Below, piece after piece: positions 7,243-48,054 of a DNA stretch of 64,000 nucleotides. This DNA comes from Fusobacteriaceae bacterium (GTDB lineage Bacteria > Fusobacteriota > Fusobacteriia > Fusobacteriales > Fusobacteriaceae), in contig JAISTB010000005.1 in assembly GCA_031272775.1 (NCBI GenBank), positions 1 through 64,000 of the forward strand, in the 5' to 3' direction. Below the pieces are notes generated by a model. It saw nothing but the letters and a program-made list of their open reading frames with translations. It was not told the origin of the DNA and searched no databases. Positions within the stretch are counted from its first letter, which is position 1. Each line of letters begins with the position of its first letter. Both the position numbers and the translations under genes were made by a program.

Positions 7243-7806
7243 TTACCCTTCGCCCTTGGCCCGGATCTCCCCGGTCGCGTACTCATATTTGCTCAAAACG
7301 TTGCCGTCTTCGTCAAACTCAAGGATCGTCCCCTCCGGTTGGCCCCCGGCGTAGCAGACTTCTTTTTTCAACTTCCCGCTCTTGTAGTAGCAGCGGAGCT
7401 TGCCCTCGGGTTTGTTGTCCAGCCAGTTGAGCTCCCATTTGACCTCGCCGGTCCGGTAGTAGTTTCGCGAGAGACCGTTGGCCCGGTCGTTTTTGTAGAC
7501 GCACTCCTCCTTGACGGCCCCGTCCTTGTAAAAACTCCGGGAAACGCCTTCTTTTTTCCCTTTTTTATAGATAATCCGCCACTTGATCTCGCCGGTTTTG
7601 AAAAAGCCGGTGACGGGTCCGTCAACCAGGCCTTTTTTATAGGTCGCGATAAATTTTTTGTTCTGTTTTTTGTCGCTGTCCCAGGTGATCCATTCCCCCT
7701 CCCTGAGACCGTCGACGTAATTTCCCGTCGAGAGCAGGAGATCTTTACTGTTGGGAGAGACGCCTTTCAATTCTTCAAAATACCCGTTTTTTTTGCTTTC
7801 GCTCAT
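7243..7806 (-). CDS. YwqK/MORN-repeat protein
   Basis: This 187-residue protein is made of repeated units of the form Y-x-x-G-x-x-x-G-x-W-x-x-Y, for example YVDGLREGEWITWD, YKKGKKEGVSRSFY and YRTGEVKWELNW. These are MORN-like repeats of the YwqK family. The start MSESKKNGY is chosen because AGGTGAG lies upstream; an in-frame upstream extension to 7923 looks non-coding. No signal peptide is seen. YwqK-like proteins are sometimes labelled antitoxin components, but no toxin gene adjoins, so the role is unknown. Confidence 0.8.
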   Translation of the reverse strand: MSESKKNGYFEELKGVSPNSKDLLLSTGNYVDGLREGEWITWDSDKKQNKKFIATYKKGLVDGPVTGFFKTGEIKWRIIYKKGKKEGVSRSFYKDGAVKEECVYKNDRANGLSRNYYRTGEVKWELNWLDNKPEGKLRCYYKSGKLKKEVCYAGGQPEGTILEFDEDGNVLSKYEYATGEIRAKGEG

Positions 7807-7936
7807 TTTGCTCACCTGGTCTTTCCCGCTTTGTACGTGTAAATCAAAAATCCGGTATTGAACTTGGTATCGTTTCGGGAGTCGTTTATGTTTTACGGGC
7901 TGTCTCTGAAAATCGAAACGCATTTTTGTTTGATCA

Positions 7937-7965
7937 ATTATACCACAAATACCAAATAAATTATA
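7937..7965 (-). promoter_or_regulatory. possible promoter of the YwqK-like gene
   Basis: A perfect TATAAT lies on the minus strand (7937-7942) with no good -35 box. A second TATAAT-like hexamer lies just upstream. The leader to the YwqK-like start would be about 120 bases. Confidence 0.4.
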
Positions 7966-8020
7966 CGGAAATTTTTGCTTTTTTCCTCAATTTTTTTCCG
8001 GTTTTTTTGAGGGACCCCGA

Positions 8021-8581
8021 TCAGCGTGAATTGTATTTCTGCATGAGTCTTTCGGTATCCATATCCCGGATAAAGTCTTCGGCCGCCTCCTTCGCAAGCG
8101 TCAGCATTTCGTTGACCGCGTTCTGTTCTTCTTCGGGGAATCTCCCCAGCACATAGTCAATGGTCTCCATGGTCGGGCGTCCGACGCCGCATTTGACCCG
8201 GGCAAAATCCTCACCCACGTGTGCGATAATGGATTTCAGTCCGTTATGGCCCCCCGATCCCCCCTGGATCCGCACGCGGATCCTGCCGACCGGAAGGTCG
8301 AGATCGTCATGGATCACCAGAAGCTCCGTCCTGGGATCGAGTTTGAAAAAGCGGATGACCTCAATCAGAGATTCGCCGCTGTCGTTCATGTACGTCATCG
8401 GTTTCAAAAATAGGATTTTCTCGCCCTTTACCGTGGTTTCCGCCAGCAAACCGCGCATTTTTTCCCGCTCCGTCGTCACGCCAAAGGCGGCGTACAGCCG
8501 GTCAAGTACGCAAAAACCGACGTTATGCCTCGTTTTCGCGTAACGTTCGCCCGGATTGCCCAGACCCGTAATCAGTTTCAT
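8021..8581 (-). CDS. pth: peptidyl-tRNA hydrolase
   Basis: Pth recycles peptidyl-tRNA released from stalled ribosomes. The 186-residue protein begins with GLGNPGERYAKTRHNVGF, containing the catalytic His of the T-R-H-N motif, and has LLVIHDDLDLPVGRIR and GGSGGHNGLKSI further on. Length and motifs are standard. It follows the serine dehydratase by 19 bases and is the last gene of the pheS-pheT operon; no clear terminator follows. Confidence 0.97.
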   Translation of the reverse strand: MKLITGLGNPGERYAKTRHNVGFCVLDRLYAAFGVTTEREKMRGLLAETTVKGEKILFLKPMTYMNDSGESLIEVIRFFKLDPRTELLVIHDDLDLPVGRIRVRIQGGSGGHNGLKSIIAHVGEDFARVKCGVGRPTMETIDYVLGRFPEEEQNAVNEMLTLAKEAAEDFIRDMDTERLMQKYNSR

Positions 8582-34595: not shown

Positions 34596-34624
34596 TTGAC
34601 AATCGGCGCCGAGTAGGCTATAAT
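34596..34624 (+). promoter_or_regulatory. perfect consensus promoter upstream of the GTPase operon
   Basis: TTGACA, 17-base spacer and TATAAT, an exact consensus. The next gene starts 368 bases downstream, so the transcript has a long leader or encodes a non-coding RNA. Confidence 0.8.
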
Positions 34625-34991: not shown

Positions 34992-35219
34992 ATGACTAAG
35001 AAATGCAGGGATTGCCATCACTACAGCGGAATGAAATGTGATCTGGGGCGCACTCTACGCACCAGAAGCCCATCCTCAACATGCGCCTTTGCGGATCCCA
35101 CAAAAAAATGGTGCTGTAATTGCCGCTTTTACCAAAACGAAGTCTGTAACCTTCGCACGCCTCGCAGAACAAGCGTAACCTCTACTTGCCCGAATTTCAC
35201 GAAACATATCATGGTATGA
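34992..35219 (+). CDS. Cys-rich protein with duplicated zinc-ribbon-like motif
   Basis: This 75-residue protein is two copies of one motif, C-x2-C-x2-Y-x4-C-x-L-x4-R-T-x3-S-x-T-C-x2-F, each with four cysteines that could hold one zinc. GAGGAG lies five bases before the ATG. It sits 66 bases ahead of the first GTPase gene, in the same direction, and may be the first gene of that operon. Function unknown; RNA, DNA or protein binding is plausible for such ribbons. Confidence 0.7.
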   Translation: MTKKCRDCHHYSGMKCDLGRTLRTRSPSSTCAFADPTKKWCCNCRFYQNEVCNLRTPRRTSVTSTCPNFTKHIMV

Positions 35220-35285
35220 GGAAGACAAAGTAGCTCTGAAGTCCATTAGAGGAACAACTTTTATCATATAAAACAAGGAGGATTC

Positions 35286-36389
35286 ATGAAAGAGTATTCT
35301 GTAGAAGAAGTTCAGAAACGGATTAGCGAAATTCAACGGGAGAATAAAATTCCGGGTATTTTGATTTGTGGCCAGACTGGAGCCGGAAAATCTTCCGTAG
35401 TAAACTATATTTTCGATGAGTCTGTTTCAACAGCAGGTGTAGGAACCCCGTGTACCAAAGGTATCAAATTATATCAGAACAACACAGTAAACATCTATGA
35501 CAGCGAAGGCTATGAAATAGGGAGCGAAAAACAAGCACATTATGAAAAATTGATTTTCGATGATTTTTTACTTCAAAAAAAAGGATACACTGAAGATTCT
35601 ATAAACATCATCTGGTACACGATTTCTGCCGCTGGAAAGCGATTTACAGATCTTGATATAAGCTTAATTAAAAAAATCTCTCAAGAAGGATTTCCGATAT
35701 GCGTATTACTCGCCAAAATAGATGAATTGGATGACAAGAGTTTATTGGAACTTGAAAATGAATTAAAGAAAGCTTTGCCTGTTTTTCCTATTTTTAAAAC
35801 GAGTATCTTGGCAAAAAACGACGAAGCGGTGGCGAAATATTGTGACTGGGAAAAAATCATTACATGGACGTACGAAAAATTGCCCGAAAACCTGAAATTT
35901 AGATATGTATCCGCATTGCAAGAATGTCTTGAATTAAAACGAAATACAGCCGATAACTACATAAATCTGGCTTCTCTCGCTGCTGCGGGGATTGCAGCGT
36001 CGCCGATTCCATTCAGTGATGCGGCGCTTCTGGTTCCTCTCCAGACAGGATTACTCATGGAAATTTGCTCTTTGTATGGAATCAAAATCAGTAATTCAGG
36101 CATATTTTCCTTTGTTTTGGATATAGGAGTCAGCCAATTGGGAAAATCTATAGCGGGAAATCTTATTAAGCTTATCCCTGGCATAGGTACTGCAATCGGT
36201 ACAATGATCAATGTAACCGTCGCATCTACAATCACAAAGGCTGTCGGAACTGCACTTTCTGAGGCTATTTATATTCAGTGTAAAAAATCGACTGAAGGAA
36301 AAGCTCCTGTAATCGACATTGAAGCGATCATCTCTTCCGGTGAATTTATAAAAAAGGTCATAGAAATGTATAAATCTACAAAGGTATAG
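35286..36389 (+). CDS. P-loop GTPase with C-terminal DUF697-like membrane domain
   Basis: The 367-residue protein has an N-terminal GTPase domain with G1 GQTGAGKSS (residues 29-37), G3-like D-S-E-G and G4-like A-K-I-D. Its C-terminal half (about 220-345) is hydrophobic and Gly/Ala-rich (ASLAAAGIAASPIPFSDAAL, KLIPGIGTAIGTMI), matching the DUF697/YcjF-type domain. ACAAGGAGG precedes the ATG. Codon use is AT-rich compared with the housekeeping genes. It is the first of four related GTPases spaced 8-22 bases apart or with one gene between; membrane association is likely. Confidence 0.85.
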   Translation: MKEYSVEEVQKRISEIQRENKIPGILICGQTGAGKSSVVNYIFDESVSTAGVGTPCTKGIKLYQNNTVNIYDSEGYEIGSEKQAHYEKLIFDDFLLQKKGYTEDSINIIWYTISAAGKRFTDLDISLIKKISQEGFPICVLLAKIDELDDKSLLELENELKKALPVFPIFKTSILAKNDEAVAKYCDWEKIITWTYEKLPENLKFRYVSALQECLELKRNTADNYINLASLAAAGIAASPIPFSDAALLVPLQTGLLMEICSLYGIKISNSGIFSFVLDIGVSQLGKSIAGNLIKLIPGIGTAIGTMINVTVASTITKAVGTALSEAIYIQCKKSTEGKAPVIDIEAIISSGEFIKKVIEMYKSTKV

Positions 36390-36397
36390 GTGTTGTC

Positions 36398-37450
36398 GTG
36401 AACTGTGAAAACCATAACAACATTATGATTTTAGGACAGACCGGAACCGGAAAAAGTTCCTTGATTAACTATCTTGCTGGAAAAGAGGTAGTCAAAACGG
36501 GAATAGGGAGACCTGTGACACGTAAAGGTCAATGGGATAAAGTAGCCTTTGCCTCACCAAACAACCCGGAAAAAGAAATTACCATAATTGACAGTTGGGG
36601 CCTTGAAGCCAATAAAGCTGAAGAATGGAAAAAGGAAATATTGGGTAAACTCAGTGAATCTATCTCTTATGAAGAGATGATCCTTGGGACCATTTATTGC
36701 ATATCTTATTCGAATGCAAGAATACAGGAATTTGAACTGGATTTGATTAAAGTAATGCTGGATACCGGATACAAAATCATTATTGCTTTTACAAACTCAG
36801 ATGATAGCGCCTATCAAGAAAAGAAAATCAAATATAGAGAAATTTTTAACACTCATTTTTCAACCTATACCGGGCAATATTCTATGATCGACGTATGCGC
36901 CTTTTCAGTTCCAAAAATTGGTCAACCAAAACCGAAAGGAACTTTCGGCCGAGAAGAACTCCTTAATGTTTTGGAGTCAGATGCACGAAGCAATTTTATA
37001 AAAGTTTATAGATCACATCTAAATTCGTGGAAAGAAGAAAGCCAAAATACGTTGAAAATATGGTATACACAGAGTTTTAAAAAAGCCCATGAATTTGAGG
37101 GTCGATTTCATGATACAAATACTACGATCGCAAAAAAGATAAATGATGAGATCAACATAGCGTTCAAAAAAAGCTGTGATAAAATTTCTACCAAATTTGT
37201 TAATTATATGCGAGACGCCCAAGGCTATTACGACATGTTCTCAGGGACTTTTTCAAAGACCAAACTTACTGGATTACGGAAGTTCAAAGACGTTACGTTT
37301 TCAGCTACAATAGTGGGAGAACTATTTAACAAATATGTTGTCAAAGAAGATCTCAAAAAGGGATTGAAAGACGCCATCTGCAGAACTAAGAATGAGGCAA
37401 CAGAAAAAATTAACCTAAGTTACTCTGAGGCACTCAAAATAATTGCTTAA
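36398..37450 (+). CDS. P-loop GTPase with helical C-terminal domain
   Basis: The 350-residue protein has G1 GQTGTGKSS (13-21), G3-like D-S-W-G and a G4 position reading N-S-D-D rather than N-K-x-D, so guanine specificity may be altered. Residues from about 210 onward are helical and charged with no membrane segment. It starts eight bases after the DUF697 GTPase. It is a divergent paralogue of its neighbours and probably works with them; exact role unknown. Confidence 0.8.
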   Translation: MNCENHNNIMILGQTGTGKSSLINYLAGKEVVKTGIGRPVTRKGQWDKVAFASPNNPEKEITIIDSWGLEANKAEEWKKEILGKLSESISYEEMILGTIYCISYSNARIQEFELDLIKVMLDTGYKIIIAFTNSDDSAYQEKKIKYREIFNTHFSTYTGQYSMIDVCAFSVPKIGQPKPKGTFGREELLNVLESDARSNFIKVYRSHLNSWKEESQNTLKIWYTQSFKKAHEFEGRFHDTNTTIAKKINDEINIAFKKSCDKISTKFVNYMRDAQGYYDMFSGTFSKTKLTGLRKFKDVTFSATIVGELFNKYVVKEDLKKGLKDAICRTKNEATEKINLSYSEALKIIA

Positions 37451-37463
37451 AAAGGTGATTTTC

Positions 37464-38261
37464 ATGACGCAGACGCAAAATCTCTTATTTTTGAATAATA
37501 TAAGCGATGAAACAAAAATAAACATTTTTCTATGTGGACAGACAGGGGCGGGTAAATCTTCTATTGTGAATTATATCTTGAAGGAGAATCTCGCGAAAAA
37601 CAGCGATACCAACGTTACAACAAAAGGGATAAAATCCTATCATAAAGGCGACCTGGGAGAATTGTGGGATAGCGACGGGTATGAAATCAATAATCAGGAG
37701 CACTATAAAAGCCTTCTGCATGATTACTTTAAGTTGAGAACACAAAACAACTATGATGAAGTTCTATTGACATGGTTCGTGGTAAACGGAGCCACAAAAC
37801 GCTTTACTTCTTACGATCAACAATTGGTAGAACTTATTTCCAAAAAGGCAGGCCACATTGCGATAGTAGTAAACAAGATCGATGAACTGAGTAGTAGCCA
37901 GTTAAGTCAATTTAAAGATTCCATAAAAAAGCAAAATCCAGAAGGAAATATTTTTCTTGTCAGCACAAAAGCCGTTGAAAACTCAGAACTCATAACATTT
38001 TGCGAATGGGATGCTTTGTTCGATTGGACTTACAAAATTGGAAATTCAGGTAATACTGTAATTCGCTTACTGCAACAGCGAGCGGAAAGCGGAGATACGG
38101 AAGCTCAAAAGGAATTAAGTATTCTGTTTGAAAGCAAAAATGCGTTCCTGCTGGCAATCAAGTACATAAAATTAGCGGCAAATGCCGGCGATAAAGCAGC
38201 ATGGGTGAAAATGAAGGAACTGGCAATCAAACATGCAATTTCAAATCAAACCAAAAGCTGA
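37464..38261 (+). CDS. P-loop GTPase with Sel1-like C-terminal repeats
   Basis: The 265-residue protein has G1 GQTGAGKSS (25-33), G3 D-S-D-G and G4 N-K-I-D, all intact. It is clearly paralogous to the first GTPase: both share VNYI, TKGIK, D-S-x-G-Y-E-I and a K-R-F-T segment. The last 55 residues (LLQQRAESGDTEAQKELS, AIKYIKLAANAGDKAAW) form Sel1/TPR-like repeats, a protein-binding add-on. I start at the ATG after AAAGGTGAT; an in-frame TTG seven codons earlier overlaps the previous gene. Confidence 0.82.
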   Translation: MTQTQNLLFLNNISDETKINIFLCGQTGAGKSSIVNYILKENLAKNSDTNVTTKGIKSYHKGDLGELWDSDGYEINNQEHYKSLLHDYFKLRTQNNYDEVLLTWFVVNGATKRFTSYDQQLVELISKKAGHIAIVVNKIDELSSSQLSQFKDSIKKQNPEGNIFLVSTKAVENSELITFCEWDALFDWTYKIGNSGNTVIRLLQQRAESGDTEAQKELSILFESKNAFLLAIKYIKLAANAGDKAAWVKMKELAIKHAISNQTKS

Positions 38262-38275
38262 TAAAGGAGGAACAA

Positions 38276-38941
38276 ATGGGGAGCTATCGATTTGATCATG
38301 ATCTTGAATTTTTCAGAACATGTTCGCATGAAGAACTTGAAGAGCTGGAAACCATTCTGATCTGGGGGACGAAGAAGAATAAAGATCAGAACAAGCGGAA
38401 TATTTCAGAGCAAATTACACGCGAACCTTTGTGGAAGGAATTCCATGAAACGGACAGAACGAAATATTGGTCATTGCTGGCAAGAGAATTACAGGAATAT
38501 GGGGGCAATACAATTATCAACACAGGCAGAGGTGGCGGCGTATACTATAGAGAAATTCTGGAAGATGTAATGAAAAAAGTAAAAACACCTTTTGACGGGT
38601 CACTTAGCACCTCTGTTAATGAACAGAATTTGTTATCCAAGGTCTTTGCAGATTCTATGTGTAATTTTTCCAAAGAACAACAAGAACGAATCATTAGAGA
38701 GTTGGATAAAAATGGCTTTCCATCAAATCTGGCTGAAATAGGAACTGGGATAGTAGAAATGCTAAAATTGGGAGGCATGGGAACAGTGATCAGTTACTTT
38801 ACGGGACCTATTGGATGGTTATATGCGGGGGAGTGGATAATATTTGGACCCGCATACCGGATAACTAAACCTGCCGTGATTCGAGTCAGTATATTGAGAA
38901 TAATCAAAAGCGCTGAACTGAACAATGAAGCAAATTGCTAA
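38276..38941 (+). CDS. YaaW/UPF0174 (DUF3944) family protein
   Basis: This 221-residue protein matches the YaaW family in its core: YWSLLARELQEYGGNTIINT, GRGGGVYYREILEDVMKKVK and NEQNLLSKVFADSM. The C-terminal part has a hydrophobic Gly-rich segment (GGMGTVISYFTGPIGWLYAG) that may insert in or lie on the membrane. AAAGGAGG precedes the ATG. YaaW has no established biochemical function, and here it is embedded among four GTPases, which suggests it is their substrate, effector or scaffold. Confidence 0.82.
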   Translation: MGSYRFDHDLEFFRTCSHEELEELETILIWGTKKNKDQNKRNISEQITREPLWKEFHETDRTKYWSLLARELQEYGGNTIINTGRGGGVYYREILEDVMKKVKTPFDGSLSTSVNEQNLLSKVFADSMCNFSKEQQERIIRELDKNGFPSNLAEIGTGIVEMLKLGGMGTVISYFTGPIGWLYAGEWIIFGPAYRITKPAVIRVSILRIIKSAELNNEANC

Positions 38942-38963
38942 AAAATTATTATAGGTGGTACCC

Positions 38964-40316
38964 ATGCGTGAATTCATAGCCAAATTGAATTTAAAAACTA
39001 TCTTGCAAATATTGATTCTTCCAGCTATTTCTTATGTCCTGCATATAGCCTATCGCAAAAACAAGTTTATCAGAACACGATTGAGAGGATTGGGATCTTG
39101 GATCGGAAAATTGCTTGACATAATCTTAGACCGCCCTCCTAAACCGAAACCCGAATCTATAAACGAGACGCCATCCATTCAAGACAATGGCAAAAATATC
39201 GAAACCAAATGCCCTGAATTTACCGAGCAATACCAAGCGCAGAGGCAAAAACTGAAATCTCCGACCATTTTCGTTTGTGGCTATAGCCGCAGCGGGAAGA
39301 AATCTCTCATAGATGCCGTTTTCTCCAGAGTCGTTCAAGCCGAAGTAGACGATGCAGACAGCGAACTGACGCAGGACTATGTTGGATATCTGAAAAATGA
39401 TCTCGTCATTTGGAAATCTCAAAATTGGAAACCAGAGCGCACAGATGACGCGTTCGAAGCGCGGATAAAAGACTTTTTCCAAGAAAAGCGGACAGATGAA
39501 GGGTCTTTGATCTGGTTTACTATCCCAAGTGATGCTGACAGTTTGAAATACGAAAAGACCTTTCTGAAGAACATTTTCAATCCGGCAAAAGACATCGTAG
39601 TTATTACAAAATGTGATCTTAAAGATAAGAAAAAAGCGATAAAAATATTACGAAAAGAAATCATGACTTGTAACGTTCCCAAAGATCGGATTATTGAGAC
39701 CAATGAACAACCCGAAGGTTATGATAAGCTTGCATCACTTACTCTCGCATCTCTTGCTGAACCCTATAAAGATGTCTTTGCAGACGAACAGACAAGACGA
39801 ACTGTCAAAATTGAAATGATCAAAAGCAAACGAAAAGCGGTGGATGCAGATGCAATAATTAAAAATGCCATAGATAGCGCTTCCGCCAATATAAAAAGTT
39901 CAATTTCTATTTCAAACATCAACAACTTTTTCCCGATACAGTTCGGCATGATCGGCAAGCTGGCAGCATTGTTTGGTTTGGATGATGAAATGCAGAGAAG
40001 AGTGAAATCTCGAATCTTGCCTGACATCTCCAGGGTAGACTCTCTTTTGCACGATTTGATTCCGAAATATGAAGGAAAGGTCAATGCCAAAACGGCTAAG
40101 CAATTGACAAAAGCGATCGGCCTGTACGCTAAAGAGAGCTTTCAGGCGGCAGTCATTGGGAAAATTGAAGGAAAAACAGATAAAGAAATCATAGAATTTG
40201 ACAAAGCTCTTTTTAAAAAATGTTACACGAAAGCTCAACAAGGGCTGTTGGACAAGCTCAAAGCACATGTATGGAAGCGAAGAGCATCCACAGAGAAAAG
40301 TTCTGCTTCTAAATGA
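38964..40316 (+). CDS. membrane-anchored degenerate GTPase
   Basis: The 450-residue protein begins with one hydrophobic segment (ILQILILPAISYVLHIAY, about 16-33), then a linker and a GTPase-like domain. Its P-loop reads GYSRSGKKS, with Lys in place of the Mg-binding Ser/Thr, and G4 is T-K-C-D; no clear G3 is seen. The long helical C-terminus (about 270-450) has no match I recognise. It follows YaaW by 22 bases with AGGTGG before the ATG. A catalytically weak, membrane-tethered member of the GTPase set is the best reading. Confidence 0.75.
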   Translation: MREFIAKLNLKTILQILILPAISYVLHIAYRKNKFIRTRLRGLGSWIGKLLDIILDRPPKPKPESINETPSIQDNGKNIETKCPEFTEQYQAQRQKLKSPTIFVCGYSRSGKKSLIDAVFSRVVQAEVDDADSELTQDYVGYLKNDLVIWKSQNWKPERTDDAFEARIKDFFQEKRTDEGSLIWFTIPSDADSLKYEKTFLKNIFNPAKDIVVITKCDLKDKKKAIKILRKEIMTCNVPKDRIIETNEQPEGYDKLASLTLASLAEPYKDVFADEQTRRTVKIEMIKSKRKAVDADAIIKNAIDSASANIKSSISISNINNFFPIQFGMIGKLAALFGLDDEMQRRVKSRILPDISRVDSLLHDLIPKYEGKVNAKTAKQLTKAIGLYAKESFQAAVIGKIEGKTDKEIIEFDKALFKKCYTKAQQGLLDKLKAHVWKRRASTEKSSASK

Positions 40317-41867: not shown

Positions 41868-42791
41868 TTGAAAAAATATGAACTCACTGCGCAAAAGAGA
41901 GTAAAAAGAGACGACGGATTCCGCCACACGCTTTACCGAATCCGTGCCTTGCGTGACTTCGAAGATGTGCTCGAAGGACAACCGGGCGGCTGGGTGGAAT
42001 CAGAGAAAAACCTTTCCCAAGAGGGGAATTGCTGGATTTATGACAACGCCGCAGTTTACGGCAGGGCAGTTGTTTCCGGAGACGCAAAGATCAGAAATTT
42101 TGCCCGGATTAGCGGAAACGCCGAAATTTGTGACGAAGCTTCCGTCCGTCATTACGCTAAGGTGGATGGGGAAGCGATCGTCAGAGGCGGCGCGTCGATT
42201 GAGGATTTTGCCTGTGTAAAAGACGGCGCCGTCGTAGACGACCTGGCAAAAATATCTCAAAACGCATGCGTCATGAATCACGCACAGGTATCGGGCGAGG
42301 CTGAGGTTTACGGAAATGCCCGGATTACCGATGACGCCAAAGTCGGCGAAGGAGCAAAGGTCTACGGAAATGCGCTTATCGGAAAAATGTCTCTACTTTT
42401 CGGTGAGTCCGAAGTTTATGACAACGCCCGGGTAATCGGGGATATCTTTGGGGTTTCTGACAATGCGAGAGTCTACGGAAACGCGCTTGTCAACGGAGAA
42501 ACCGGATACGCCAGCGATACGTCATTTATTTGCGATAACGCCTTATATGCTTCCTGCGGAAGTTTGACAGAAAATGCAAGCGTTTCAGAAAACGCGCATG
42601 TATATGATTTTGCCAGCCTCAATGACAATGCCTCCGTAGAGGGAAACGCAACCTTGAGAGATAACGCCGAGATTTGCGGCGACGCCATTGCCTGCGGCAA
42701 CGCCATTGTCAAAGAAAACGGCAGAGTTGAAGGCGACGGCCTTGTTTCAGACGATGACGTAGTCGACGGGGAAAAGGTCATCACGGAATAA
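41868..42791 (+). CDS. left-handed beta-helix repeat protein, paralogue 1
   Basis: The 307-residue protein has an N-terminal cap (MKKYELTAQK, LYRIRALRDFEDVLEGQPGG, WVESEKNLSQEGNCWIYDNA). About 40 hexapeptide-like turns follow, of the form N-A-x-V-x-G/D, the pattern of left-handed parallel beta-helices. The start is TTG with GGGGAGG eight bases upstream, supported by alignment with paralogue 2. It has no signal peptide or enzyme motif. Such helices in gut bacteria are often linked to phage or surface structures; here the role is unknown. Confidence 0.8.
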   Translation: MKKYELTAQKRVKRDDGFRHTLYRIRALRDFEDVLEGQPGGWVESEKNLSQEGNCWIYDNAAVYGRAVVSGDAKIRNFARISGNAEICDEASVRHYAKVDGEAIVRGGASIEDFACVKDGAVVDDLAKISQNACVMNHAQVSGEAEVYGNARITDDAKVGEGAKVYGNALIGKMSLLFGESEVYDNARVIGDIFGVSDNARVYGNALVNGETGYASDTSFICDNALYASCGSLTENASVSENAHVYDFASLNDNASVEGNATLRDNAEICGDAIACGNAIVKENGRVEGDGLVSDDDVVDGEKVITE

Positions 42792-42823
42792 GCCTGATCT
42801 TGTAAAAATCTAAAGGAGGACTC

Positions 42824-43690
42824 ATGAAAAAATACGAATTGACAGCAGAAAAGAAAATCTGGATCGAAGACGAAGAAGAACGCAAAATCCTTTATCGTAT
42901 CCGAGCCCTTAGAAATTTTGATGATGTTCTGAAAGGAGAACGCGGTGGTTGGGTCGAGTCGGATTCCAACCTCTCTCAAGAAGGAAGTTGTTGGATATAT
43001 GATGATGCGGTTGTTATCGGGAACGCATCCGTATCGGAAGACGCAAAAATTTACGCTTTTGCCGTGATAGGAGGAAACGCCCGGATTTCAGGGAACGCTT
43101 GGATTAGCGACAACGCTTGTGTGGGGGATGACGTGACCGTATGTGAATATGCCGGTCTTTCAGACCAAGCCAAAGCGCTTGATTCGGCTGTCATCAAAGG
43201 AGAAGCCACGATCTTAGGAAACGCTGTTATCATCGGTCACGCGGAGATTTCCGGAGGCGCCCGGGTAAAGGGAAATTCAAGAATCAATGAAAACGCGAAG
43301 ATTTACGACGACGCAGAAGTAGAAGGAAACGCCATGGTCACTGGAGAAGCCCAGGTTTACGGCAATGCCCTGGTCTGCGATAATGCACTTGTAGGAAAGA
43401 ACGCCAAGATCTATGAAAATGCCCGCATTACCGGAAACGTCATGATACTGGGACAAGCGGAAGTATATGGCAAAGCCCGGATAGCGGATAACGCGAAAAT
43501 TTACGAGTCGGCCAGAATATTTGATGAAGCCTCTATCGGAGGAAACGCGAGGATTTTTGACAGCGCGAAAGTATATGACAGCGCCGGAGTGACAGATAAC
43601 GCAACCGTAAGCGGAGATGCGGAAATTTACGGAGATGCCGTTATCGGAGGCAATAGCGTGATTACAGAGGGCGAAAAGATATTCGAGTAA
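42824..43690 (+). CDS. left-handed beta-helix repeat protein, paralogue 2
   Basis: This 288-residue paralogue has the same cap (MKKYELTAEKKIWIEDEEER, RGGWVESDSNLSQEGSCWIY) and hexapeptide turns through to the C-terminus (ISGNAWISDNACVGDDV, DSAKVYDSAGVTDNATV). AAAGGAGG precedes the ATG. It follows paralogue 1 by 32 bases. The caps are far more alike than the helical parts, as expected after tandem duplication with turn-number drift. Confidence 0.8.
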   Translation: MKKYELTAEKKIWIEDEEERKILYRIRALRNFDDVLKGERGGWVESDSNLSQEGSCWIYDDAVVIGNASVSEDAKIYAFAVIGGNARISGNAWISDNACVGDDVTVCEYAGLSDQAKALDSAVIKGEATILGNAVIIGHAEISGGARVKGNSRINENAKIYDDAEVEGNAMVTGEAQVYGNALVCDNALVGKNAKIYENARITGNVMILGQAEVYGKARIADNAKIYESARIFDEASIGGNARIFDSAKVYDSAGVTDNATVSGDAEIYGDAVIGGNSVITEGEKIFE

Positions 43691-43723
43691 TCGTGAAATA
43701 CCATTCGGACAGGAGGCGGCAAA

Positions 43724-44896
43724 ATGAAAAAAACCTCAGGCACAACCAAAAAAAAGAAAGAAACGGCAGAAAAACTCGCGGCCATCAAGAGTCCTTTTTT
43801 GAGGTCCATCCTTGAAAAGGCCCCCATGGCCTTGGGCAACTATGATTTCATTTTGAATATCCTGAGCAGTTTCACCGGAGAGAACGAACCCCCGTATCTG
43901 GATCTCCTGATGGAGGAAGCCGCTATTTGGGGCATCATGGATAAAGAATATGCCGATGGCGAAAAATATATTTTTGTGGATTGCCATCCCTTTGAGATCT
44001 GTGCAGAAACCACAAGAAAAATCGCTGCGGAAATCCTTCCGATCACTTACGACCTCGAGAACAAATATGCGGAAAGATGGCAGAAGGCCATGAGGAAATG
44101 CAACCCGGAAATTCCCCTGAGCTGCCGGATCGCCCTGTCGGATGCGGGTGCGTTTTTCGAGGAGACTGTCGTGGAAGTCATCAAAGAAGCGGCTCACAGA
44201 ATGTATGCCCCGAAACGGCTGTTTGGAGACCTTGTCGGCAGGATAACAGGTATTGATTTCGTAACCCCCGTATGGAGAGGGGTAGCAGGATTGGCTTTAA
44301 GTACGGCTGAGGGATTTCGTGATATATTGGGAACGCTTCCCGGGATTTCCAATCTTCACGCCCTCTTTGAGGCTTGGGTTCTTCGGGAAATGTGCGAACA
44401 AGGTGAGGAAGCGCCAACAGTAGAAGAAGCGCTTGGGGCAATGAGAGAAATCTGTCTTGCCCTCCGGGATCTGGGAGCAATTGATCAGGTGACCCTGGAT
44501 TCTTTTATGGAAATGACGAATTTGGATGCGCTCTTTAAGGGAAAACTGAAAGAGAAAATCAAAAAAAACCGCACAATGGATTTGGGAAAAAAATACGCTG
44601 AAAGATGGAAAAGCAAAATTCCGTGCGTATTGGATCCTGAAAATTCCAAAACCTTCCGTCTCGTCTTGCTACGCGCGGAGCAAATTTTGCAGCTTGCCTT
44701 GAAAGATCTACGGATTGACGACGAAAGGCTCCGGCAGGCGGAAAAAAGCGCCTTGATTTCCAATTTGACCGAGCTTGCTGAGGCGAGAGATCTTCAAGCT
44801 CGACTTATGGGCAAAGAAGTCGCTGCGGATTATGCGGAAGTGAAGACAGCCGTCGGAGAATACGAGACGGCCCTGCTGGCGTTGAACGCGTTATAA
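43724..44896 (+). CDS. unknown 390-residue protein
   Basis: A Lys-rich N-terminus (MKKTSGTTKKKKETAEK) leads into a mainly helical protein with no signal peptide. Segments such as KYAERWQKAMRKCNPEIPLS and KKYAERWKSKIPCVLDPENS are similar, hinting at an internal duplication with about 190 residues between copies. GGAGGCGG precedes the ATG. It is co-directional with the beta-helix genes. I do not recognise its family. Confidence 0.72.
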   Translation: MKKTSGTTKKKKETAEKLAAIKSPFLRSILEKAPMALGNYDFILNILSSFTGENEPPYLDLLMEEAAIWGIMDKEYADGEKYIFVDCHPFEICAETTRKIAAEILPITYDLENKYAERWQKAMRKCNPEIPLSCRIALSDAGAFFEETVVEVIKEAAHRMYAPKRLFGDLVGRITGIDFVTPVWRGVAGLALSTAEGFRDILGTLPGISNLHALFEAWVLREMCEQGEEAPTVEEALGAMREICLALRDLGAIDQVTLDSFMEMTNLDALFKGKLKEKIKKNRTMDLGKKYAERWKSKIPCVLDPENSKTFRLVLLRAEQILQLALKDLRIDDERLRQAEKSALISNLTELAEARDLQARLMGKEVAADYAEVKTAVGEYETALLALNAL

Positions 44897-47392: not shown

Positions 47393-47671
47393 ATGATGTC
47401 AACAAATATCAATATCAGAACGGATAAAGAATTAAAATCGCAAGCTCAAGCCCTTTTTGCCGATTTGGGATTGGATATTTCAACGGCGGTCAATATTTTT
47501 TTAAGACAGGCTGTCTATAAACAGGGAATTCCTTTTGAAATCTCAAAATCTGCTGATAATTTGAAAAACAAAAAACTCCCTTTTTCTACGCTAAAAGGTG
47601 TTCTGGCCGGAAAAGTTACGATGGCAGACGATTTTGACGCTCCGATGGAAGAATTTACGGAGTACATGTGA
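47393..47671 (+). CDS. RelB/DinJ-family antitoxin
   Basis: This 92-residue protein has the ribbon-helix-helix domain NINIRTDKELKSQAQALFAD, GLDISTAVNIFLRQAV and GIPFEI, the RelB/DinJ signature. Its C-terminus is acidic (ADDFDAPMEEF). GAGGTGAT precedes the ATG. Its stop overlaps the start of a PIN-domain toxin gene (TGATG). Pairing of a RelB/DinJ-type antitoxin with a PIN toxin rather than RelE is a partner-swapped arrangement seen in type II systems. Confidence 0.87.
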   Translation: MMSTNINIRTDKELKSQAQALFADLGLDISTAVNIFLRQAVYKQGIPFEISKSADNLKNKKLPFSTLKGVLAGKVTMADDFDAPMEEFTEYM

Positions 47672-48054
47672 TGCGTTACCTGCTTGATACACATGCGTTA
47701 ATTTGGTATATGGAAAACTCCGATAAACTTCCATCTCAAGTTAGAGAGATTATTGAGCAAACCGGAGATAGTATTTGTATTTCAGTAATTTCTCTCTGGG
47801 AAATTGCAATTAAAGTTTACAACGGAAAGCTGAACTTAAAAATCTCTTTTGATGAATTACTTGATATCGTTGAAGCAAGAAAATTTAATCTATATCAAAT
47901 TACAAACCGATATCTGAAAAGCCTTTCGGCGTTGCCATTTTTTCATAAAGATCCATTTGATAGGCTTTTAATTGCAACAGCAATCGCTGAAAAAATGACT
48001 TTGGTCACTGCTGACACAAATATTCATCAGTACAACTTAAATTGGATTTGGTGA
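47671..48054 (+). CDS. PIN-domain toxin (VapC-like)
   Basis: The 127-residue protein has the PIN acidic residues: LLDTHALIWYM (Asp6), SLWEIAIK, HKDPFDRLLIATA and TADTN. These coordinate Mg for RNA cleavage. The sequence most resembles the Sll0205-like PIN group. The ATG overlaps the antitoxin stop by one base; a GTG one codon earlier is possible. All catalytic positions are present, so it is likely active, in contrast to the other toxin genes of this island. Confidence 0.88.
   Translation: MRYLLDTHALIWYMENSDKLPSQVREIIEQTGDSICISVISLWEIAIKVYNGKLNLKISFDELLDIVEARKFNLYQITNRYLKSLSALPFFHKDPFDRLLIATAIAEKMTLVTADTNIHQYNLNWIW

Follow-up and report, generated by a model that had tools for sequence, protein, structure and literature searches.

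A JukA-family gene within an operon of four related GTPases in a Fusobacteriaceae bacterium: a candidate Juk-like anti-phage module

The DNA analyzed here, referred to as the window, is a 64,000-nucleotide stretch from a Fusobacteriaceae bacterium (contig JAISTB010000005.1 of assembly GCA_031272775.1). Between positions 34992 and 40316 it harbors an operon that encodes, in this order, a small cysteine-rich (Cys) protein, three GTPases (A, B, and C), a YaaW protein, and a fourth GTPase (D). The key to this locus is the YaaW protein, a member of the JukA family, which provides the sensor of the anti-jumbo-phage system Juk. We therefore describe the locus as a JukA-centered operon with GTPase partners; it contains a JukA-family member and is not a JukAB system. 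On balance, we lean slightly towards reading it as an anti-phage module of the Juk type, obtained by horizontal transfer, whose JukA would work with membrane-remodeling GTPases instead of JukB. In this reading, JukA-family membership and the linkage to GTPases are computational results, whereas phage defense, attack on membranes, and the roles of the single GTPases are inferred.

In the Juk system, JukA acts as the sensor of the vesicles that giant phages form on infection and works with diverse effectors, among them JukB, which forms tetrameric pores on the early-infection vesicle; in some cases JukA is protective by itself (PMC13282480). Silencing of jukA in Pseudomonas aeruginosa PA14 means that phage phiKZ is no longer blocked (PMC12571901). 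The YaaW protein of the window (221 amino acids (aa), positions 38276 to 38941, plus strand) matches the PADLOC JukA models with E-values of 6.4e-38, 2.4e-36, and 1.8e-13 and, over its whole length, the NCBIfam model PRK10236 (5e-26). This substantiates the YaaW-family gene that an earlier note, made from the sequence of the window, had placed between the third and fourth GTPase, and replaces the unsettled function which that note had ascribed to it by membership in a sensor family. The match to DUF3944 (PF13099) stays below the cut-off (22.6 versus 24 bits), while a homolog in another JukA locus (L027) reaches 52.5 bits. A search of the window's own genome with PF03981 gave no match, although the E. 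coli protein was found; the window protein is too divergent or shortened for this model. In an alignment with 60 homologs, 36 of the 53 columns with strong conservation are retained in the window protein. JukA is present in only 4 of 98 sampled species of the phylum, an occurrence that fits the expectation for a mobile system.

The G domains of all four GTPases are homologous (A to B, E 1e-10; C to D, E 1e-6; A to C, 38% identity), and the proteins represent two subfamilies, A and B, plus derivatives. GTPase A (367 aa, 35286 to 36389, plus strand) combines a G domain of the septin/EngA/immunity-related GTPase (IRG) type (Pfam Septin, 6e-8) with a membrane-type helical half of the DUF697/EcsC kind that contains two hydrophobic stretches. 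The DUF697-like domain proposed earlier was recovered behind the P-loop G domain with 30.0 bits (PF05128, cut-off 27.7), and with 31.7 bits when the C-terminal half was searched alone. GTPase B (350 aa, GTG start, 36398 to 37450, plus strand; MMR_HSR1, 1e-8) carries a charged helical C-terminal domain and belongs to a separate subfamily marked by the G3 signature DSxGLEAN...W (DSWGLEAN in B itself). Its clade also holds the B protein of genome G005, from a different genus of this family, and that of an Acinetobacter plasmid (support 98/92). GTPase C (264 aa, 37467 to 38261, plus strand; MMR_HSR1, 4e-10) has an A-type G domain and a short unrelated C-terminus; since it shares A's G domain and is its sister on the G-domain tree (support 100/96), C is an in-lineage duplicate. 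The Sel1-like repeats that had been assigned to this C-terminus did not hold up, as Pfam gave no match there at E-values up to 10.

A 336-aa alignment of GTPase D (38964 to 40316, plus strand) with A shows 22% identity (E 8e-10), so that A's DUF697-like domain is also present, in degenerate form, in the C-terminal half of D. One N-terminal hydrophobic segment (residues 15–33, mean hydropathy 1.74) agrees with the membrane anchor suggested before. The GTP motifs were likewise read correctly in the earlier note: A, B, and C share a GQTGxGKSS P-loop and keep G1 and G3, B reads TNSDD at G4, and D has a GYSRSGKKS P-loop and lacks the G3 aspartate, with KSQN where the others read DSxG. D, a degenerate full-length paralog of A, is most readily taken for a tethered pseudo-GTPase.

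Linkage of JukA to GTPases recurs outside the window. We collected 82 independent JukA loci from many phyla using an alignment as query, and scanned 48 adjacent and 116 distal genes. A counterpart lies in another genus of the family (genome G005, locus L013), where a WYL regulator is followed by JukA, an A-type GTPase, a B-type GTPase, and a small protein that has a membrane segment at its C-terminus; neighboring genes overlap or are spaced by no more than 8 base pairs (bp). As the two JukA proteins are only 28–29% identical, the JukA-A-B association is either old or has arisen repeatedly. WYL regulators also accompany sister JukA loci. Across the set, MMR_HSR1 or Dynamin_N domains were found in 5 of the 48 adjacent genes, distributed over three loci, compared to at most 2 of the 116 genes lying farther from JukA in these loci (Fisher p ~0.02, a modest value because the five genes come from three loci). 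In a Bacilli metagenome-assembled genome (L043:3163-7465), JukA is followed by LeoBC and LeoA dynamins (PADLOC, 1.6e-89 and 7e-139), and in Fibrobacter (L061:8007-12294) by LeoBC and LeoA-type dynamins; these two loci may represent a JukA-dynamin system. In Parapusillimonas granuli (L044:1456-3227) an IIGP-type GTPase (42.3 bits, cut-off 24) lies 11 bp upstream of JukA. YaaW and GTPases of this sort, whose joint occurrence the earlier note had proposed as a check, are therefore found together in L013 as well as in the Parapusillimonas, Bacilli, and Fibrobacter loci. DUF697 was matched by two further JukA-adjacent proteins, of which one (in L027) stands by itself beside JukA. On the JukA tree, parsimony needs four changes to explain the GTPase association, and well-supported branches force at least two. 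Fusion of yaaW to a GTPase domain has been noted in Shewanella and Campylobacter coli in older work (PMC2268670).

Other genes take the same place. JukB adjoins JukA four times in the set, indicating that the neighbor position is the effector position, and M48 peptidases and helix-turn-helix (HTH) regulators were each found five times. With JukB, M48, HTH, and GTPase neighbors all present in one set, the partners of JukA are modular. Among 389 genomes searched with a B profile, full-length B occurs in two, the window genome (G000) and G005, in both cases within a JukA operon (genome-level Fisher 8e-5, uncorrected for kinship).

Several further loci were seen during this comparison. In a sister species (G051), four to five DUF697-like GTPase genes lie in tandem at the start of contig C36 (L121:225-8219), and its JukA and Cys genes end at the edge of another contig, C62; the contig ends do not overlap, and we do not claim that the two form one operon. 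In Campylobacter jejuni (L048:7995-11372) JukA is followed by a PDC-M40B protein (4e-53), and PDC-M40 may be another JukA-effector pair. Small GTPases in Leptotrichia-like genomes (G072 and G077; L122:10097-12124, L123:4529-5647, and L124:9625-11619) share their loci with Csx1-CARF-like and Cas1/Cas2 genes. These CRISPR-locus GTPases cluster on the G-domain tree with the IIGP-type GTPase that adjoins JukA in Parapusillimonas (100/98).

A Foldseek search of the PDB with an AlphaFold2 model of A (predicted local distance difference test, pLDDT, 74) returned IRGs as all of the top 17 matches, with Irga6, Irgb6, and Irgb10 among the best (E 2e-8 to 6e-7). An A-family profile searched against PDB sequences hit septins (2e-14) and Irgb6 (6e-10). 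IRGs share with A a G domain combined with a membrane-type helical domain, whereas the window GTPases are bacterial, are encoded in an operon with a sensor, and score below the cut-off of 24 bits for Pfam IIGP (PF05049; A 13.3, C 20.0). In this model comparison, the likeness is secure for the G domain and only suggestive for the whole architecture. Among IRGs, Irga6 vesiculates the Toxoplasma vacuole (PMC4774019).

LeoABC resembles the operon in that it also combines several GTPases of the dynamin superfamily, and Leo genes directly follow JukA in L043 and L061. However, the window GTPases match the PADLOC Leo profiles weakly and in the G domain only (E 3e-4 to 7e-2), and Pfam found no dynamin helical domain (DLP_helical) in them; membership in LeoABC was ruled out on these grounds. 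The operon has in common with JukAB a JukA-family gene in a compact, patchily distributed operon, and homologs of this gene adjoin JukB. It differs in that it encodes four GTPases instead of JukB and that its JukA is about 30 residues shorter. PADLOC detected no JukB among the operon proteins, and a JukB profile search of the genome gave no match, with the limit that the controls of that search also gave none; the same profile does find JukB beside JukA in L081 (3e-117). Canonical JukAB was ruled out accordingly.

The genes themselves are arranged as a compact unit. All six are intact open reading frames on the plus strand, with gaps of 66 bp between Cys and A, 8 between A and B, 16 between B and C, 14 between C and YaaW, and 13 between YaaW and D. 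The tight packing described before is borne out, with gaps of 8–16 bp rather than 8–22 bp in the GTPase/YaaW block. The reading frame of D opens at a GTG at 38955, and the ATG at 38964, shortly after AGGTGG, is the better start. Good ribosome-binding sites precede the ATG of at least A, C, YaaW, and D, and no terminator-like site was found between the operon genes. A candidate promoter of the operon at 34596 to 34624 on the plus strand (TTGACA-N17-TATAAT) matches the sigma-70 consensus at 12 of 12 positions, the best match in the region.

The GTPase and YaaW genes have a G/C content of 0.36–0.40 (0.34–0.41 at third codon positions, GC3), compared to 0.51 for the window and a GC3 of 0.63–0.69 for housekeeping genes. 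This indicates acquisition from an AT-rich donor; composition thus points to horizontal transfer of the operon, as the earlier note had proposed from the AT-rich codons. As seen in the window and in L011-L013 and L121, G/C content varies unusually within this one family, from 0.51–0.55 in the host to 0.26–0.33 in the examined stretches of G005, G022, and G051.

Relatives of A and B also travel without JukA. A and B occur together on the plasmids pXBB1-4 of Acinetobacter johnsonii and pE_NDM of Klebsiella michiganensis, where they overlap by 8 bp, just as in G005 (L013). The prophage and plasmid DUF697 GTPases and the pXBB1-4 pair are likewise members of the A and B subfamilies, with 34.5% and 38.6% identity to their window counterparts; they differ in that JukA is absent, and the Acinetobacter B lacks the helical C-terminus. 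In addition, A relatives are found as single cargo genes between the phage genes of P2-like prophages and on Klebsiella IncFIB plasmids that bear phage-type genes. Examples are the A-type DUF697 GTPases at L152:5956-7068 and L144:5992-7098, the prophage copies lying beside baseplate genes. Such a distribution is that expected of anti-phage or superinfection-exclusion genes, and is circumstantial in nature.

In the mechanism we propose, the JukA-family protein would recognize an early phage product or a phage-induced membrane structure and, without recruiting the pore-former JukB, would work with GTPases of the septin/IRG/dynamin superfamily. A may insert into or bend the membrane via its DUF697 domain, with B as its partner GTPase and C as an A-derived regulatory or co-polymerizing subunit. 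D, as a membrane-tethered pseudo-GTPase, could supply an anchor that the shortened JukA may need; that the two compensate each other is a guess on our part. Driven by GTP, A, B, and C would then assemble on the membrane thus marked and reshape or break open the phage compartment or the injection site. Membranes are the common target of the proteins that alternate beside JukA, namely JukB (pores, PMC13282480), Leo dynamins (PMC4159319), DUF697 proteins, and IRG-like GTPases (Irga6, PMC4774019). A more specific and rather tentative version, to which we give clearly less credence, regards the operon as a bacterial counterpart of IRG immunity: JukA would mark a phage-made compartment and load IRG-like DUF697 GTPases (A, B, and C with tethered D) that rupture it, much as mammalian IRGs do with the Toxoplasma vacuole. 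If so, the operon would stand for a GTPase branch of Juk, of which the LeoA/LeoBC and IIGP-type neighbors of JukA would be further versions.

A number of observations weigh against a JukA-GTPase defense module. The enrichment of GTPases next to JukA rests on 5 genes in 3 loci, and only 3 of the 82 JukA loci have an adjacent GTPase of the types detected. Both genomes with full-length B belong to one family. GTPases are absent from most JukA loci, and A or A+B can be found apart from JukA; the link is therefore modular rather than obligatory, and the rarity of GTPase neighbors makes this association one variant among several effector types. The A-IRG matches, which extend over ~400 columns, have template-modeling (TM) scores of 0.34–0.41 and root-mean-square deviations of 12–15 Å, so that only the G domain is securely similar. 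The window JukA lacks a hydrophobic block of ~30 residues containing GRGL (columns 218–248) that is present in all 60 compared homologs (L100 is short of a few residues), and may be altered or impaired. The AlphaFold2 model of the shortened protein is all-helical and confident (pLDDT 85, predicted TM score 0.84), implying that this loss need not destroy the fold; searched against PDB folds, it gave nothing below an E-value of 2. Finally, we know of no phage of the host.

The JukA deletion, unique among 61 sequences and located in a conserved region, together with the degenerate P-loop and G3 of D, would also suit a decaying remnant of a once active JukA-GTPase system, in which JukA lost an essential segment and D lost GTP binding. 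We hold this to be very unlikely, as the six frames are open, ribosome-binding sites are kept before at least four of the genes, G1 and G3 are retained in A, B, and C, and JukA is predicted to fold with good confidence. Moreover, tethered pseudo-GTPases are known in such complexes. The GTPases might instead act in defense on their own, as a two-GTPase DUF697 system like the membrane-protecting bacterial dynamins, with YaaW as an independent passenger comparable to solo JukA. This reading, possible though doubtful, would account for the plasmid and P2-like prophage copies without YaaW and for the 79 JukA loci without an adjacent GTPase of these types; the dynamin DynA needs no sensor to delay lysis (PMC8844932), and solo JukA can protect (PMC13282480). 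It sits less well with the position of YaaW inside the operon, separated from C and D by 13–14 bp, with the confinement of full-length B to JukA operons in our sample, and with the repeated origin of JukA-GTPase adjacency.

Envelope maintenance or a response to membrane stress, with YaaW as a general membrane adaptor and no role against phages, is an improbable alternative. DUF697/EcsC and dynamin-like GTPases serve general membrane maintenance, and E. coli retains a chromosomal yaaW. However, the patchy occurrence of JukA in the phylum, the foreign base composition, the prophage and plasmid relatives, and the JukA identity itself argue against this reading. The earlier suggestion of a membrane-associated GTPase complex for defense or stress is hence supported as to a membrane-associated GTPase operon of defense type, while we found no evidence for its stress option.

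The first gene of the operon (34992 to 35219, plus strand) encodes a 75-aa protein with a two-fold CxxC...C repeat, matching the duplicated Cys-ribbon described before. Its homolog in the sister species of the same genus (G051; 44% identity) lies directly upstream of JukA. Only 2 of the 5 copies in the genus adjoin JukA; because the others sit away from it, the link to the system is uncertain, and a role as a dedicated component is doubtful. A second copy in the window genome (L183:8685-8909, contig C37) sits a short way downstream of a gene for a reverse transcriptase (7499-8545; RVT_1, 1.6e-18). In the surroundings of the operon, the decayed toxin-antitoxin setting noted earlier applies to the upstream side, where a MazE/AbrB-like antitoxin and a nucleotidyltransferase each stand alone, but not to an intact-looking pair of RelB-type antitoxin and PIN-domain toxin at 47393-48054 (G/C content 0.34–0.37). 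The region 41868-44896 encodes a tandem pair of YdcK-type beta-solenoid (hexapeptide-like) proteins and, after these, a 390-aa protein that fits no clear family.

The effectors described for Juk are pores, phospholipases, and transcription regulators, and no GTPase is named in a review of the system. Our analysis suggests a new kind of anti-phage effector, built from GTPases that are distantly like the mammalian ones attacking pathogen-containing vacuoles. If true, a GTPase branch of Juk would give a directly testable function to DUF697 GTPases, which are spread over prophages and plasmids, and would extend membrane-directed anti-phage systems beyond Pseudomonas. It would also link bacterial anti-vesicle immunity to the dynamin/IRG/guanylate-binding protein logic of cell-autonomous immunity in animals.

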